33,957 bases of DNA from Planctomycetota bacterium (lineage in GTDB: Bacteria; Planctomycetota; Planctomycetia; Gemmatales; Gemmataceae): NCBI GenBank assembly GCA_021325115.1, contig JAJPHU010000186.1, positions 1 to 33,957 on the forward strand, written 5' to 3'. This document shows, one piece after another, positions 1,919 through 30,500 of the stretch. Each line of letters opens with the position of its first letter. Positions within the stretch are counted from its first letter, which is position 1. The translations under genes were made by a program, and so were the position numbers. The notes beneath the pieces were generated by a model. It was not told where the DNA came from. It did not search any database and saw only the letters and a program-made list of their open reading frames with translations.

Positions 1919-4432
1919 ATGTATGAACGTTTTACCGACCGTGCTCGCAAGGTGATGCAGCTGGCCAACCAGGAGGCCCAGCGCTTCAACCACGAGTATA
2001 TTGGCACCGAACACATCCTCCTGGGCTTGGTCAAGGAAGGCTCAGGCGTTGCCGCCAACGTCCTGAAAAACCTTGACATCGACCTGCGTAAAATTCGCCT
2101 GGAGGTCGAGAAGATTGTACAATCCGGCCCGGACATGGTGACGATGGGCAAATTGCCGCAAACACCACGGGCCAAAAAAGTTATCGAATATTCCATTGAA
2201 GAGGCCAGGAACCTCAATCACAACTATGTTGGCACCGAACACCTGCTCTTGGGCTTGCTCCGTGAACAGGAAGGGGTGGCCGCTCAAGTCCTTATGAACT
2301 TGGGGCTAAAGTTGGAAGATGTACGAGAAGAGGTCCTGAATTTACTGGGGCACAACATGGCAGCGGAAGAACAAGCGGGCGGAGGCACAGGAGAACGTCA
2401 GAAGCAGGGCAAGTCCAAGACGCCGGCCCTGGACAGTTTTGGCCGCGATTTGACCGAATTGGCCCGTCAGGGCAAGCTCGATCCGGTCATTGGCCGGCAT
2501 AACGAGATCGAGCGCGTCATTCAAGTGCTCAGCCGCCGTACCAAGAACAATCCGGTGTTGCTAGGCGAGGCCGGCGTCGGCAAGACGGCCATCGTCGAAG
2601 GGCTGGCCCAGCTGGTCGTCGATGCCAACGTACCGGAACTGCTGCGTGATCGCCGTATTGTCGTGCTTGACCTGGCCATGATGGTCGCCGGCACCAAGTA
2701 TCGCGGCCAATTTGAGGAACGCATCAAGGCCGTTATGAATGAAGTGCGCCGAGCGCGGAATACCATTCTATTCATCGACGAACTGCACACGTTGGTCGGC
2801 GCCGGCGGTGCCGAGGGGGCCATCGATGCGTCCAACGTACTCAAGCCGGCCCTGGCACGCGGCGAGATTCAGTGCATCGGTGCCACCACACTCGATGAGT
2901 ACCGCAAATACATCGAGAAAGACGGCGCCCTGGAACGCCGCTTCCAGCAGATCATCGTTAATCCGCCGTCCAAGGAAGAGACGATCGAGATCCTCCGCGG
3001 CCTGCGGGATCGTTACGAAGCGCATCACCGTGTCCAGATCAAAGACGAAGCACTGAATAGCGCTGTCGAGCTGTCGGATCGCTACATCAGCGGTCGTTGC
3101 TTGCCTGATAAGGCTATCGACGTGATCGATGAGGCTGGAGCGCGTGTGCGGCTCAAGGCCATGACGCGGCCGCCGGACCTGAAAGAGATCGACGCTCAGA
3201 TTGAGCAGCTCAATCAGGAAAAGGAAGCTGCCGTCGCCGAGCAGGACTTCGAGAAGGCCGCTCACCTGCGCGATCAGGCCGATAAACTTAAGAAAAAGAA
3301 GGAATCGATCACCCGCGAATGGCGCGAGAAATCGAAAGAGATCGACGGCGTCGTCGATGAAGAGGTGATCGCCGAGGTCGTCAGCAAGATGACCGGCGTG
3401 CCGCTCAAGCGGCTGGAGGACAACGAGACGCAGCGACTACTCCATATGGAGGACGAGTTGCACAAGCAGGTTGTCAGCCAACACGAGGCGATCAACGCCA
3501 TCGCCAAGGCGGTGCGTAAGAGCCGGGCCGGATTGAAAGATCCGAAACGGCCCATCGGCAGCTTCATCTTTGCCGGACCCACTGGGGTCGGCAAGACGCT
3601 GTTGGCCAAGCGGCTCGCCCACTTCATGTTCGGCGATGAGAATGCGCTGGTGCAGATCGATATGTCCGAATACTCGGAGAAGCATAACGTCAGCCGACTG
3701 ATCGGCGCGCCTCCGGGCTATATCGGCTACGAAGAGGGTGGTCAGCTGACCGAGAAGATCCGCCGTCGGCCCTACAGCGTGGTCTTGCTCGATGAGATCG
3801 AGAAGGCCCATCCCGAAGTGTGGAACATGCTCTTGCAGATCATGGAAGAAGGCCGACTGACCGACAACGTCGGCCGCACCATCGATTTCAAGAACACCAT
3901 CCTCATTATGACGACGAACATCGGTGCCGAGCAGATCGCCGGCCGACAGGAGTTCGGTATCCATGCCGCCGCGCGGCGTAGTGAGGAATCCACCTACGAG
4001 GGTATGAAGCAGAAGCTCAAGGCCGAGATGGAGCGTAACTTCCGGCCTGAGTTCCTCAACCGCGTGGACGACATCATCGTCTTCCGCAGCTTGACCAAGG
4101 ACAACCTCAAGAAGATCATCGACATCGAGCTGAGCAAGGTGTCGAAGCGCCTGGCCGATAAGGGACTGGCGCTGGTCCTGACTGAGGAAGCCAAGGACTT
4201 CTTGATCGAGAAGGGCACCAGTCTGGAATACGGGGCGCGTCCGTTGCGTCGGGCTATCGAGCATTATCTCGAAGACCCGCTGGCCGAGGATCTACTGCAT
4301 GGCCGCTTCGCCGGTAAGGACACGGTCACCGTCCGTGTTCAGGAGGAAGGCGGCGAGAAGAAGCTGTACTTCGATGCCACGACGACCGCCACGCCCGAGC
4401 TGGTCGGCGCCGGCAGCGAAGCGAAGGTATAA
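1919..4432 (+). CDS. clpC: ATP-dependent Clp protease ATP-binding subunit ClpC
   Basis: [37 protein letters not shown]; two Walker A motifs ([18 protein letters not shown]), UVR-like segment, 837 aa. Confidence 0.97.
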
Positions 4433-4438
4433 ATGCTA

Positions 4439-4515
4439 GCGGACAAAACTGTAGGGCAAGGGGGCAGTGTGTCTGAAAAGGACAAACGGCCCCCTTGCCC
4501 TACAGTTTTGTCCGC
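4439..4515. terminator. Long perfect palindrome, probable bidirectional terminator between convergent genes
   Basis: 27-bp perfect arms 4439-4465 and 4489-4515, 23-nt loop. Confidence 0.65.
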
Positions 4516-4536
4516 CTGTCCTTTGTTTCCTCGCCT

Positions 4537-6050: not shown

Positions 6051-6101
6051 TCTCCCTTCCCCCACCCCAGCTCTCTCCCGCCAGGAGAGAGGGGGAAAAC
6101 C
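6051..6101. repeat. Possible partial copy of the pyrimidine-rich palindromic element seen at 16183-16316
   Basis: cccaccccagctctctcccgccaggagagaggg resembles cccatcccagccctcccccacaaggagggagg at 16265-16297. Confidence 0.35.
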
Positions 6102-8957: not shown

Positions 8958-9024
8958 CCGGCGAGTGGGGCGTGGGAACGCCCTGGTTTTTTCTACCGGG
9001 GTGTTCCCACGCCCCACTCGCCGG
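8958..9024. repeat. Palindromic element between two genes of the adaptor locus
   Basis: 22-bp perfect arms 8958-8979 and 9003-9024, inner stem continues with wobble. Confidence 0.65.
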
Positions 9025-13903: not shown

Positions 13904-13916
13904 GGCGAGGATTCTT

Positions 13917-13969
13917 CCTCAGCCTGCTGCGGCTGCCAGGGCATCCCTGGCAGCCGCAGCAGGCTGAGG
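13917..13969. terminator. Perfect 25-bp stem, 3-nt loop palindrome
   Basis: cctcagcctgctgcggctgccaggg-cat-ccctggcagccgcagcaggctgagg. Confidence 0.6.
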
Positions 13970-13985
13970 AGAGGAGGATCGCCCG

Positions 13986-14812: not shown

Positions 14813-16036
14813 TTACAGGACAAGCGCCTCATAATCGACAGGATGCTCCTTATCGATACGCGGCAAGTTCAGTGAGATGACTTCTGGATATTTCTGCGCT
14901 GCCCCGGTGTTGAAAACAACCACTTCCTCATCGGCGTCGATCTTGCCGGCCGTGATCAACTGCTCCAGGCAATCGAAACAAACCGCCGTTTCCGGACAGA
15001 TAGAGATGCCTTCCAGACTCATACCGCGACGCATCCATTCGACGATGCGTCCTTCGCGACCGGCGCTGGCGCAACCGCCACTGGCGCGAATGGCATCGAG
15101 CATCATAAAATCGCCGACTGCTGCCGGCACCCGCAGACCACTGGCAATCGTATGTGCATTGGCAAATGTCTCGGCGAAGCGCTCGCCTTTCTCGAAGGCC
15201 CGCACAATCGGCGCACAGCCCTCGCTCTGGCAACTGACCAGACGCGGCAAGCGCTCCGAGCGCAGCCAACCTAATTCGCGCAACTCAGTGAACGCCTTCC
15301 ACATGCCGATCAGGCCGGTGCCGCCACCGGTTGGATACAGGATCACGTCTGGCAACCGATATTCGGTTTGCTCAGCCAACTCCAGGCCCATCGTCTTTTT
15401 GCCTTCGAGGCGATACGGCTCCTTGAGCGTGGATACGTCGAACCAACCGAGTTTCGCCGTACCTTCGCGGACAATTCGGCCGCAATCGGTGATGAGTCCG
15501 TTGACGAGAAAAACGCGCGCCCCCGCCAGGTGTGCCTCAATCTGGTTGATGATCGGCGTATCTTGCGGCATGAACACATAAACTTCCATGCCGGCCCGAG
15601 CGCCGTAAGCGGCCAGAGCACCGCCGGCATTGCCCGCGGTCGGAATGGCCAAGCGACGCAGGCCGAGATGCTTGGCCATGCTAACCGCCATGGTCATCCC
15701 GCGACTCTTGAAACTGCCGCTTGGCAGCTGCGATTCATCTTTGATGAACAGTCGTCGCAATCCCAACGCTTGCCCCAGACGTGGACAGGGCAACAGCGGC
15801 GTCATGCCTTCGCCAAGCGTCACCGGCTCCACATCCAGCGGCAAAGGCAGCAATTCCCGATAGCGCCATAGGCTCGGTGGCCGAGAGGTAAAGGTGTCCG
15901 GCGTGACGGCACGGCGCACAGCCGGCAGATTGTAGCGGACCCAGAGAGGGCGTCCCTGATGTACCGTGTGGACCTGCCCGGCGGGAAATTGAGTGCCATC
16001 GAGGGCGCTTTCCAGATGGGTGACGTAGCTGTTCAT
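14813..16036 (-). CDS. thrC: Threonine synthase (PLP-dependent)
   Basis: LGEGMTPLLPCPRLG, IKDESQLPSGSFKSRGM, PTAGNAGGALAAYGARAG, PTGGGTGLIGMWKAF. Confidence 0.87.
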   Translation of the reverse strand: MNSYVTHLESALDGTQFPAGQVHTVHQGRPLWVRYNLPAVRRAVTPDTFTSRPPSLWRYRELLPLPLDVEPVTLGEGMTPLLPCPRLGQALGLRRLFIKDESQLPSGSFKSRGMTMAVSMAKHLGLRRLAIPTAGNAGGALAAYGARAGMEVYVFMPQDTPIINQIEAHLAGARVFLVNGLITDCGRIVREGTAKLGWFDVSTLKEPYRLEGKKTMGLELAEQTEYRLPDVILYPTGGGTGLIGMWKAFTELRELGWLRSERLPRLVSCQSEGCAPIVRAFEKGERFAETFANAHTIASGLRVPAAVGDFMMLDAIRASGGCASAGREGRIVEWMRRGMSLEGISICPETAVCFDCLEQLITAGKIDADEEVVVFNTGAAQKYPEVISLNLPRIDKEHPVDYEALVL

Positions 16037-16107
16037 GGTGTTTCCTCAAACGGACGACAGAAGCAGGACGGAGTAAGTTCGAACGGCGTCATCTACCGTG
16101 AGTACAG

Positions 16108-16161
16108 TCAATCAGTGTCAAGGTACCACAAGAAGACATGAGTATCGAGCAACAGTCTCAT
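16108..16161 (-). pseudogene. 5' remnant of PIN-domain (VapC-like) toxin gene
   Basis: ATG AGA CTG TTG CTC GAT ACT CAT GTC TTC TTG TGG... = MRLLLDTHVFLWYLDTD*, start overlapping the ancestral antitoxin stop (ATGA). Confidence 0.7.
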
Positions 16162-16536
16162 TCCCCCTCGAACTCCTTAAGGGCTAACGGACTTTTCCCT
16201 CCCTCCTTGTGGGGGAGGGTTGGGGTGGGGGGACACAACTCCTTGGCTCCATTGCCTTGACACCTCCCATCCCAGCCCTCCCCCACAAGGAGGGAGGAGG
16301 TTTGGTCCGCTATCTCTAAGGATTTCATCGGGCAATGGACTGTCAAAGCCAGCGGGAACAGTAAACTGGCTGGCACAAAGGCCGAAAGGGCGCAGCTGCG
16401 CGGCCGCCTTGGCAATTGGGCGCACTTCTACCAAAGGTTGTTCTGCTCGGACCACGAGGAACGACTCTCTCCCTTCCAATAGCTGCAGGAAGGCGGAGGG
16501 ATCGCGCCGGATATTTTGCACACGGATGGTGTTCAT
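16158..16536 (-). pseudogene. Phd/YefM-type antitoxin gene with 3' end interrupted by palindromic element
   Basis: MNTIRVQNIRRDPSAFLQLLEGRESFLVVRAEQPLVEVRPI...LPDEIL, then element; ancestral tail KEFEGE* lies on the far side at 16158; current reading frame ends at 16177. Confidence 0.75.
16178..16321. mobile_element. MITE-like palindromic element with flanking TAAGG direct repeats
   Basis: TAAGG at 16178-16182 and 16317-16321; arms gggctaacggac...ccctccctccttgtgggggagggttgggg / ccca(t)cccagccctcccccacaaggagggagg...gtccgctatctc. Confidence 0.7.
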
Positions 16537-16792
16537 GTGCCTCATTGTAGACGGCGCAGACAAGCAATCAAAGGATTTTTGTTGAAACAACGCAAAAAAT
16601 CATGTATGCACCCGCCCTGCCAACAGCTCTATATTAGGGGGAGTTCTATCAAAGGGTGAGTATTCGATGGCCAACATACGACATCAGTGAACGCCAGGGC
16701 GGCAGCCCAACCAAGCCCGTTCGATGACCCGTGGTAACGATTATCGAATTTCGGAGTTTTCTGGGCATCTGTATCTCCAAGCGACGATGAGT

Positions 16793-16867
16793 CCTGATGC
16801 GTGTGGGGCGTGTGAGCCTCCCGGTTGCTTCCACCGGGACATCCACACATCCCGCTCGCCAATCAGG
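16793..16867. repeat. Imperfect palindromic repeat related to the ggcgagcggggcgtg... family
   Basis: cctgatgcgtgtggggcgtgtgagcctcccggt / accgggacatccacacatcccgctcgccaatcagg. Confidence 0.55.
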
Positions 16868-16906
16868 CTTCTGGAACAAAAGACATGTCAGGTATGCGAT
16901 CCACAC

Positions 16907-18217
16907 TCACGCTACGATCTCCGCGATCGGCTTGGCCGTCGGTTCGACAAGACGGATCGGCCGGCCGACGTTAGATTGGTTTTGTTTGCGCGGATCGAGT
17001 CCGAGCGCAAGGCAGATAGTGGCGAGCAAGTCAGCCACTTCGATCTTGCGTTCCTCGATAGTCATGCCGTCGCCGCTGGTCTTGCCGATGACCTGTCCGC
17101 CCTTGATGCCGCCGCCGGCCAGCACCGTGGACCAGCCAGAAGCCCAGTGATCGCGGCCCGTGTTGTCGTTGATACGGGGCGTGCGGCCGAATTCGCCCAT
17201 CCACACGATCAACGTCGAATCGAGCATTCCCCGATCTTTGAGGTCGTTCATCAATGTCGCCCAAGCCGGATCGAGAATGTCGCTAAGTCGCTTGACCTGC
17301 TCGAAATTCTGCTGGTGTGTGTCCCAGCCGTTGAGCGTGACTTCGATGAACGGCACGCCACGTTCAACGAGCCGTCGGGCTAACAGGCAGCCCTGGCCGA
17401 ACAAATTGCGGCCATAGGCATCACGCAGCTTGGCTGGTTCTTCTTCGAGATGGAATGCCTTGGCGGCGGAAGAGCGCATCATGGTGACGGCACGGCGATA
17501 AGCGGTGCGATGGCTCTCGGCAGTGACGCTGGAATGTTGAGCGAGGAACTCTTGTTCTATCTCTTCGAGCATTTGCAGACGAGCTTCGCAGCGCTTGGCG
17601 TTCACATCGCTGGGCAGATCGAGGTCTTGCACACGCAGTGCCTGGGCGATGTCGCCGCCGGCAGTATTTTCGCCGACAATCAAAGGAGCATAACGTGGCC
17701 CCAGGAAACCGGGAGAGTAGGCGGCTGCATTGAGGAAACGGAAGGGGGCGATGCTGACGAAGCCGGGCAATTCGACGCCGGGATGCTCCAACTCCTTGGA
17801 CACAAACGAACCCAAAGGCGGATACTGAATTGGCCCACCCGGCACGCGGCCGGTGCGCAGAAAGAAAGTGGCCCGGCTATGATCGGCTTCCTTCGTATTC
17901 ATGGAACGAACTAGCGCCATGTGGTGCATGTGCTGGGCGATCTTGGGCAGGTGTTCGCTGATTTTGATGCCGGGGACGCTGGTGGCGATTTCCTTGTAGG
18001 GGCCGCCGTTGGCGTGTCCGGGTTTCAGATCGAAGGTATCCATCTGGCTGGGACCGCCGGCCATCCACAGCAAAATGCAAGCACGCTTGCGCTCAGGGCT
18101 TTTCGCTACCGCGGCAGCCAGATTTTCCAACCAAACAGACATAGAATATCCCATAAATCCGGAAATAGACAGCGTCAGCCATTCCCGGCGCGACAGGAGG
18201 AACGCGGAACGAGACAT
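16907..18217 (-). CDS. DUF1501 domain-containing protein
   Basis: MSRSAFLLSRREWLTLSISGFMGYSM leader; ILLWMAGGPSQMDTFDLKPG, GREHWASGW-like GRDHWASGWSTVLAGGGIKGGQVIGKT; RBS aggaggcc before ATG at 18217. Confidence 0.9.
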   Translation of the reverse strand: MSRSAFLLSRREWLTLSISGFMGYSMSVWLENLAAAVAKSPERKRACILLWMAGGPSQMDTFDLKPGHANGGPYKEIATSVPGIKISEHLPKIAQHMHHMALVRSMNTKEADHSRATFFLRTGRVPGGPIQYPPLGSFVSKELEHPGVELPGFVSIAPFRFLNAAAYSPGFLGPRYAPLIVGENTAGGDIAQALRVQDLDLPSDVNAKRCEARLQMLEEIEQEFLAQHSSVTAESHRTAYRRAVTMMRSSAAKAFHLEEEPAKLRDAYGRNLFGQGCLLARRLVERGVPFIEVTLNGWDTHQQNFEQVKRLSDILDPAWATLMNDLKDRGMLDSTLIVWMGEFGRTPRINDNTGRDHWASGWSTVLAGGGIKGGQVIGKTSGDGMTIEERKIEVADLLATICLALGLDPRKQNQSNVGRPIRLVEPTAKPIAEIVA

Positions 18218-27443: not shown

Positions 27444-27527
27444 ACGAGCCGGAAGCGTAAGCGATGGCAAAACATCCGTCACTTACACTTCCGGCTCGTT
27501 ATACCGTCGCGAACGCTTCCGGCTCGT
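27444..27527. repeat. Three copies of a 24-nt repeat acgagccggaagcgtaagcgaYgg (one +, two -)
   Basis: 27444-27467 (+), 27476-27499 (-), 27504-27527 (-). Confidence 0.75.
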
Positions 27528-30500
27528 TACTCGGTGACGGCGGGCGGCGGCCGATAGCCGGTCTGCGTTTCTTCCTCTTCGGCCTGGATAATGATGCGCG
27601 GCGTCACCATGATGAGCAAGCTCTCGGCCGAGCGCCCGTAGCCGATGTTGCGGAACAGACGGCTCAGATAGGGGATCTTGCTCAGCACCGGCGGGCCAAA
27701 TTCATTGCGGCCCTCGGACAAACGTTTCAGACCGCCCATCAGCACGGTGCCGCCGTCCGGCACCGCCACGGTTGTGTTCACCGAGACACGCGACAGGCGC
27801 GGCTGCTGGATGAACTGGGTGAACACCACGGGCTGGCCGGTTGCTGTGCCGTCGAACAGAGGGAAGATCGGCGTCACTACCGGGAACAGGTTGACTTCGC
27901 CGTTGACTACGTTGGCCAAGCTGGGCGCCAGCGACAGACGCACGAAACGGCGATCGCCGGAGATGACGGCGTTGATGGTCAGGATGATATTCAAGGGGAA
28001 CAACGTGGTGATGGGATTGTACACCACTTGGCCGTAGCCGCCGTTGACCACCGAGACACCAATCGTGAAGAACTGGTAGTCCTGGACAGCGATGTTGGCC
28101 GTCTGCCCGTTGAACAGCGTCAGCTTGGGCGCCTGCATAACATTGGTACGAGTATCGCCAGCTACCGCTTCCATGAACAGGAACACCTGAATGTCGCTGA
28201 GGAATGCCAGGCCCATCGTCAGGCCGCCGTAGCCGGGGATGCCGGGGTAGCCACCAAACGGTGGCACAGCCTGCGGATAGGTCAGCTGCGTGATCGGAAT
28301 GTTCAGGTCGCTCGTCAGGGTGCCAGCCGGCGTCAAACCGGAGACCAGGTTGTTGGGGGCGAAGAAGTTGATGTACGCCGGATTGGCAAACTGGCCGGAG
28401 ACCAATTCCGGCTGGACTTGCAGCGCGGACCGGCTCTTGTTGAGGATGTTCATGTTGAAGTTGACGCCAATACGCTCGAAGAAATCCTCAGCGATGCTGA
28501 TGAACTTGACCTCGACGGCCACTTCCTGATCGATCAGGCGCCGCAAGGCGTTGAGCAGATCCTGAACCTGGTCCTGAATGTCTGGCGTCTGATTGACAAC
28601 CAAGGCCAGGGTCAGCGGATGGAAATCGATGGTCCCTGATCCGCCTTGCTCGGCCCAGCTGTGCGGCGCGATGGTGTTGGTGATTAGTTTGATGAGCATC
28701 TCTTCATGCGTCTGCGGACGCTGCTTGGTCACCTGGACATTGCTGCCCGATGCTCCCTCGGCGAAGCTGCTCGGCGACGCATTGGCCTGCGAGCTGCCAG
28801 GCGGCGCGGCCGGCAGGCTGACCGGCTGGCCGCCCGGCATTCCGGTCATGGCAGTCGGGGGCATCGTTGCGCTGAGCGCTTGATTGACATTGATCATGCC
28901 CAGCTGCGTTGTGGCGTCCGGCGTCGTACCAACCTGGCCGAAATTCTCCACGGCGATGACCAGGTCGGCCACCGGATAGACCACTTGCTTGAGCTTGCCG
29001 CGTGCCTGATCTTCCGTGGTGATTTTCAACACATCGTCGGACACGACATAGGTGAGGTGCACCAGACCCAACACCAATTTCAACGCCGATTTGAGAGAGA
29101 TATTGTCAAGTTTGATCGTCACCGGCGCGTCCAGCTGAATCCCTTTGTCGGCCAGGGCCGGCTCGTCAATGAAGATGTTGATACCCTGATCGCCGCGGAT
29201 GTAATCGATGACCTCGCGCAACGGCTGGTTGGTGCAGCTGAGACTGATCGGTGCCGTCAGCTTGCGCTCAATGTTGCGCTCTTCCGTCGAGATGCGCTGC
29301 GGAGATACGCCTTCCAGCGACTTGCGGCTTTGGATTCTCCGGCGACGCCCTTCATCTTTGGTGAAGGTGATGTCGTTCGAGACCGCATCCGGATCGCCGA
29401 TGTCGTCTGTACCGTGCATCGCTTCGATGAACACGTCTTCCTTGCGTGCCTTGTCATTCTCGTACTGAGAATGGTTGCGCTGGTACTTGGCCATGGTGAT
29501 GGCGGCGGTGGCCATCGGATTATCCGGATCCAACTCCTTGATCCGCAGCGCCACCATTTCCGCTTCGGGATACTTGGCGTCGTGGAACAACTCGTTGTAC
29601 TGCTTCATCAACTGGGCGATGTTTTTCTGCTTGACCTGCTCGGCGTTCTTGGCTTTGGCCATGTCGCTCTTGACCTTCCGTGATCGTTCATCGAAGCGGC
29701 TGTTGGCCAGTTCGGACTGCGCCTTGAGGAGCTGGAACTGTTGCAGGCGCGAATCGATCGGCCGCCGCAGCATCGCCAGCTGAGCCGGATCCAGCTGCTC
29801 CTCTGCCAGCCGGGCGAGATATTCCTGGAGCATGTCCACGGCCACATCGGTCTGTCCGGTGCGGAAGCGTTCCAGGGCTTGCGCCTGAACGTTCAGCCCT
29901 TCGGTGCGGAGTTGCTGGAACTTGACTTCGCGCAAAGCGCGTGTACGGGCCAGCAGCGATTGTCCTGGATCATCAGTGGCGCGGGCTTGTCCTTCCCTTG
30001 CTTGCCCTTCGGACTGGTAGGCACTGGTGAGGGCAATGCCGTTGCTGCGCGCACCGGGCTGCATCTCCGGCGTGTTGAGTATCTCACGTAGCCGGCCGCG
30101 GCGTCGTTCGTCGAGTTTGTTGGTATCGATGCTGGCCAGGATCAGATTAGCCCGACGATAATCGCGGTGCTGATAGGCCACAACGGCCTCATCAAAAGTG
30201 CGATTAGCTCGCCGCCGATTCTGCGCGTCCTCCTCGGCATCGATGGTGCGCAGCACGGCCAGGCCGGCCTCACCGGCGCCGAGCTTGACAGCTTCCTCAG
30301 CGAAACGCCGCGCGTTGGCTGTCTGACCGCTGCGTAGCTCCAAACGGGCCTGATCGAGCAACTGCTCAAAGTTCTGCGTTCGGAGTTCGGAATTCGGAGT
30401 TCTAAGCTGTGATTTCTCAGACCCCGGAACGTGGGACTCGGCACGGACGAGAGTGGTACCGCCGCCGCGCAGTTGATTGACCATCTGCATGGCGGCGTTG

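Follow-up and report, generated by a model that had tools for sequence, protein, structure and literature searches.

The locus and its features

The window analysed here (33,957 nt) is contig 329 of a 5.6-Mb draft assembly of 383 contigs. On its minus strand, a frame starting at 16536 encodes a Phd/YefM-like antitoxin, of which the first 73 codons (16318–16536) are intact and 63% identical to those of homologues over 73 aa. The frame is interrupted at codons 73–74 by a 136-bp element (16181–16316, GGGCTAACGGAC ... GTCCGCTATCTC) with internal palindrome arms of 35 nt. The displaced 3' end of the gene, encoding KEFEGE*, lies on the same strand at 16158–16178, out of frame with the start. Downstream are two minus-strand remnants of a PIN-domain toxin gene in different frames: an N-terminal one at 16108–16161 (MRLLLDTHVFLWYLDTD*), matching the start of an intact 130-aa toxin of a congener, and a C-terminal one at 16046–16111 (LTVLTVDDAVRTYSVLLLSSV*), matching LTLVTMDDAIRAYSIALLPAQ of the same toxin.

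No gene, and in particular no transposase gene, is contained in the 136-bp element. Its two terminal inverted repeats (TIRs), at 16181–16192 on the plus strand (GGGCTAACGGAC) and at 16305–16316 on the minus strand (reading GTCCGCTATCTC on the plus strand), are identical at 9 of 12 positions, with GRGCTASCGGAC as the 12-bp consensus of the element. The predicted single-stranded folding energy is -46.4 kcal/mol, compared with a mean of -24.3 for shuffled sequences (z = -7.7). Rfam gave no match anywhere in the window, and no terminator-like site was found in 16000–16950, the region around the insertion site. On the evidence given below, we are highly confident that the 136-bp element is a miniature transposon (MITE) of the non-autonomous type, whose ends are those of IS5-family insertion sequences.

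Copies, borders and target duplications

About 95 cores of the interior of the element were found in the genome with up to 2 mismatches, while a reversed control gave none; these copies had no place in the original prediction. The right-end consensus GTCCGSTAGCTC occurs 98 times, compared with 27 for its reversed control. Borders were drawn from an alignment of the 40 best copies of a similarity search, after which the 98 exact GTCCGSTAGCTC sites were located and 60 further stretches fetched. When left ends were paired with right ends, 99 candidates resulted, and the 68 falling in the main size classes were used for the flank counts.

The palindrome, whose sequence is as first quoted, lies between two copies of TAAGG and had been described as an element of about 134 bp flanked by a 5-bp target duplication. 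The duplication is real, but it consists of 3 bp (TAA, at 16178–16180 and 16317–16319), and the borders make the element 136 bp long. Only 7 of the 68 copies match in the 5-bp register, and a TAAGG duplication was rejected, as the two left bases are part of the element in nearly every copy and bases 4 and 5 of the right flank vary freely. The element begins with GG in 47 and with GA in 13 of the 68 copies, bases that complete the 12-bp inverted repeat GRGCTASCGGAC. The 3-bp and the 5-bp reading predict one and the same empty site, because by chance GG follows in the target as well.

Duplications of 3 bp are likewise present at other copies: identical flanks were seen in 46 of the 68 size-restricted copies, where shuffling of the right flanks predicts 24.5 (P<=5e-5), the maximum in 20000 shufflings being 37. 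These 46 comprise TTA (30) and TAA (12), together with GAA, AAA, TTT and TAC (1 each), the last four being non-consensus pairs. An exact match is missing in the other 22 pairs, some of which are false pairs; in several, the two flanks are distinguished by the middle base alone. Six copies thus carry TTA on one flank and TAA on the opposite one, for which mutation or recombination among copies may be responsible.

The copies come in forms of about 57, 94, 136 and 170 bp, plus one with a second, unrelated palindromic interior (CCGTAGGGCAAGC...), all having the 12-bp end GRGCTASCGGAC in common. What is most unusual about this family is that a second, different interior is joined to the same ends. 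Tentatively, and with less than even likelihood, it could be viewed as a modular MITE platform of >100 copies, in which IS5-type ends stay fixed while interiors are exchanged or shrink, in a genome without the driving transposase. The assembly contains one locus in two versions (on contigs 44 and 188) whose flanks and target duplications are identical, one with a 57-bp and the other with a 135-bp form. This pair suggests that elements can shrink internally, for which slippage involving short repeats of the two arms is a possible mechanism.

Two further sites in the window resemble these elements. At 4431–4518, a decayed second-interior element (ATGCTAGCGGACAAAACTGTAGGGCAAG ... GTTTTGTCCGCCTGTCC) lies at the TAA stop of a ClpC-like ORF (1919–4432), with no clear target duplication seen. 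At 6059–6093 there is a lone arm, 83% complementary to one MITE arm, which is probably a MITE remnant.

Complete IS5-family elements in relatives

Full-length elements of this type were sought by scanning 98 genomes of the family for the end motif together with the target. Apart from matches in the own genome and in one congener, the scan yielded a genome with exactly two pairs of ends 871 bp apart, that of Limnoglobus roseus PX52 (NZ_CP042425.1), which was also recovered by a separate pattern scan. Its two 871-bp elements have 19-bp perfect inverted repeats (GAGCTAGCGGACAAAACCC) and are flanked by TTA/TTA and TAA/TAA, respectively. A 905-bp relative, flanked by TTA/TTA, is present in an Isosphaera MAG; in the congener, a decayed relative of 904 bp lies between TAA and TCG and carries the end variant GAGCTACCGGAC that is also common among the MITEs. 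The Planctomycetota MAG JANXLS contains the end motif on many contigs. The left TIR of the MITE at 16181–16192 matches the ends of the relatives' IS5-family elements, GAGCTA(G/C)CGGACAAA.

The L. roseus elements encode two overlapping frames, the first with PF13340 and the second with PF01609, both above cut-off. The transposase halves match NF033580 ('IS5 family transposase') at positions 6–97 and 105–257 (58.7 and 69.2 bits); neither half reaches the 110-bit cut-off set for the whole protein. A TCAAAAAAGGGG motif is found at the frame junction in all three relatives (L. roseus, the Isosphaera MAG and the congener). A transposase associated with matching terminal repeats, which the original prediction proposed to look for, was found in complete elements of relatives.

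In the 383-contig draft genome of the window, neither half of the L. roseus-type transposase has a match, and searches with the families PF13340 and PF01609 yielded nothing but fragments or IS5 elements whose ends differ. The source of the transposase has probably been lost from this genome or is unassembled in it. The proposal that this palindrome class moves as a MITE-like unit is supported, but with no matching transposase in the own draft genome it is more accurate to say that it moved.

The partner elements can be compared with known groups of the IS5 family. Members of the IS427 group have two overlapping ORFs with a frameshift motif, a length of 832–865 bp and TIRs of 13–21 bp (PMC3281130); the layout of the partner is the same, with 871–905 bp and up to 19 bp of perfect TIR. 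However, IS427 members mostly duplicate 2 bp (PMC3281130), while the partner and the MITE duplicate 3 bp. The partner's insertion site of three bases, a trait noted for ISLxx6 and ascribed to the IS1031 group (PMC2516522), is shared with that group and with the intermediate ISLxx6/IS1237 (899 bp for IS1237), but the IS1031-like layout is a single ORF (PMC2516522) and not two frames. The partner combines the two frames of the IS427 type with the 3-bp site of the IS1031 type.

An alternative driver would be another IS5-family element of the own genome, with ends GAGCGTGTTTGC and TNA targets, in which case the MITE may still be active. Three IS5-family fragments with such ends were observed, adjoining TNA and in some cases located at contig edges. 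These elements exist in the genome and share the GAGC tip with the MITE, but the copies are fragments and their inner TIR bases are unlike those of the MITE, whereas the L. roseus-type ends match; we consider this source unlikely. Far less probable is placement by a RAYT transposase, a single-strand (HUH) enzyme, as for REP/BIME-type palindromes, which carry no target duplication. The element is short, palindromic, strongly folding and present in high copy number, all as expected for REP/BIME sequences, but it has 3-bp target duplications, and its two-ended inverted repeats are those of complete DDE-type IS5 elements.

On the IS5-based reading, a transposase produced from orfA and orfB, which a -1 frameshift at an A6G slip site probably joins, would have recognised in trans the GRGCTASCGGAC ends and placed the MITE into TNA targets (TTA or TAA in most cases), with repair of a 3-nt stagger giving the three-base duplication. 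At the present locus, the MITE would have entered codons 73–74 of the antitoxin gene, exchanging KEFEGE for a 46-residue tail.

The antitoxin gene and its toxin partner

In the actual frame of the antitoxin gene, the last six residues (KEFEGE) are replaced by 46 residues read out of frame from the MITE (RDSGPNLLPP...SVSP*). Scripted joining of the flanks, with 139 bp left out, gave a 79-codon frame ending in DEILKEFEGE*, the same empty-site tail as in the original prediction. A search of 60 related genomes gave three homologues of the 73 intact codons, and all of them stop six codons past the insertion point: GEILKEFEGT* (the congener, 63% identical), DDILKEFEGA* (a genome of another genus, 63%) and DDVLRGFEGR* (the third). 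The extended tail, which in relatives would have spoken against an insertion, is absent from all three. That the TAAGG repeats are coincidental and that the palindrome has long been native to a longer-tailed antitoxin, as the frame open through the element might suggest, is hardly credible, as homologues end exactly at the stop of the joined frame and about 95 copies of the element lie elsewhere with different flanks. An orthologous empty site was sought at the threonine-synthase loci fetched from the congeners and by antitoxin searches in three of them; no antitoxin was found in two, and in the third the copy is located elsewhere. These searches thus gave no orthologous empty site, which is instead deduced from the protein homologues and from nested copies (see below). 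With Pfam PF02604, the antitoxin of the window gave no match, and its congener homologue scored 12.8 bits, below the 29.8 cut-off.

The antitoxin gene of the congener overlaps a gene for a 130-aa PIN-domain toxin (PF01850, 58 bits, E 1.8e-15), and the same overlap is kept in the window as an ATGA junction. The toxin remnants comprise the first 16–17 and the last ~21 codons, with ~90 internal codons missing, a defect that had escaped the first description of the locus. The gene order, the overlapping ATGA junction and the PIN toxin of the congener are those of Phd/YefM plus PIN (VapC-type) pairs, but in the window both genes are broken. With the toxin dead, loss of the antitoxin tail would not be selected against; the insertion was probably tolerated for this reason and probably cost the cell nothing. 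By this logic of tolerance, the toxin may have been lost before the antitoxin. In one genome of another genus, the PIN toxin next to the antitoxin homologue is also internally deleted, with different breakpoints.

Nested insertions in another repeat

A second repeat, CGCTTACGCTTCCGGCTCG, occurs in 42 exact intact copies genome-wide, one of them at 27445 of the window. Diverged copies of this repeat harbour seven MITE copies, which split it exactly at its TTA; when the outer sequences of these seven were joined with one TTA removed, the CGCTTACGCTTCCGGCTCG repeat was restored. These nested copies are independent evidence of insertion. In the window, 27444–27529 contains arms of the high-copy repeat CGAGCCGGAAGCGTAAGCG, with 42 exact copies genome-wide, other copies being split by the MITE.

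Relation to known MITEs

Prokaryotic MITEs such as the Correia elements and QMITEs have been reviewed (PMC10969869). They are likewise short and gene-free, with TIRs, direct repeats, many copies and disruption of coding sequences. This review mentions neither Planctomycetes nor antitoxins, and the likeness is one of description. Our search at title and abstract level found no relevant report on MITEs of Planctomycetes. The event described here is of an ordinary kind and, in this case, well documented: a hairpin element jumped into an antitoxin gene and truncated it. Its value is that i) an anonymous high-copy palindrome is tied to a transposase family and given exact borders and a rule for its targets (3 bp, TTA or TAA in most cases), ii) the complete L. 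roseus elements make trans-mobilisation directly testable, iii) the locus clearly exemplifies a toxin-antitoxin pair in decay, and iv) recognition of MITEs that interrupt other repeats helps the annotation of Gemmataceae genomes.

Two other strong hairpins were observed in the window. One, at 8958–9024, has 30-nt arms that are 93% complementary; the other, at 13916–13970, has 26-nt perfect arms and is located just after an 857-aa ORF, where it is likely to be a terminator.
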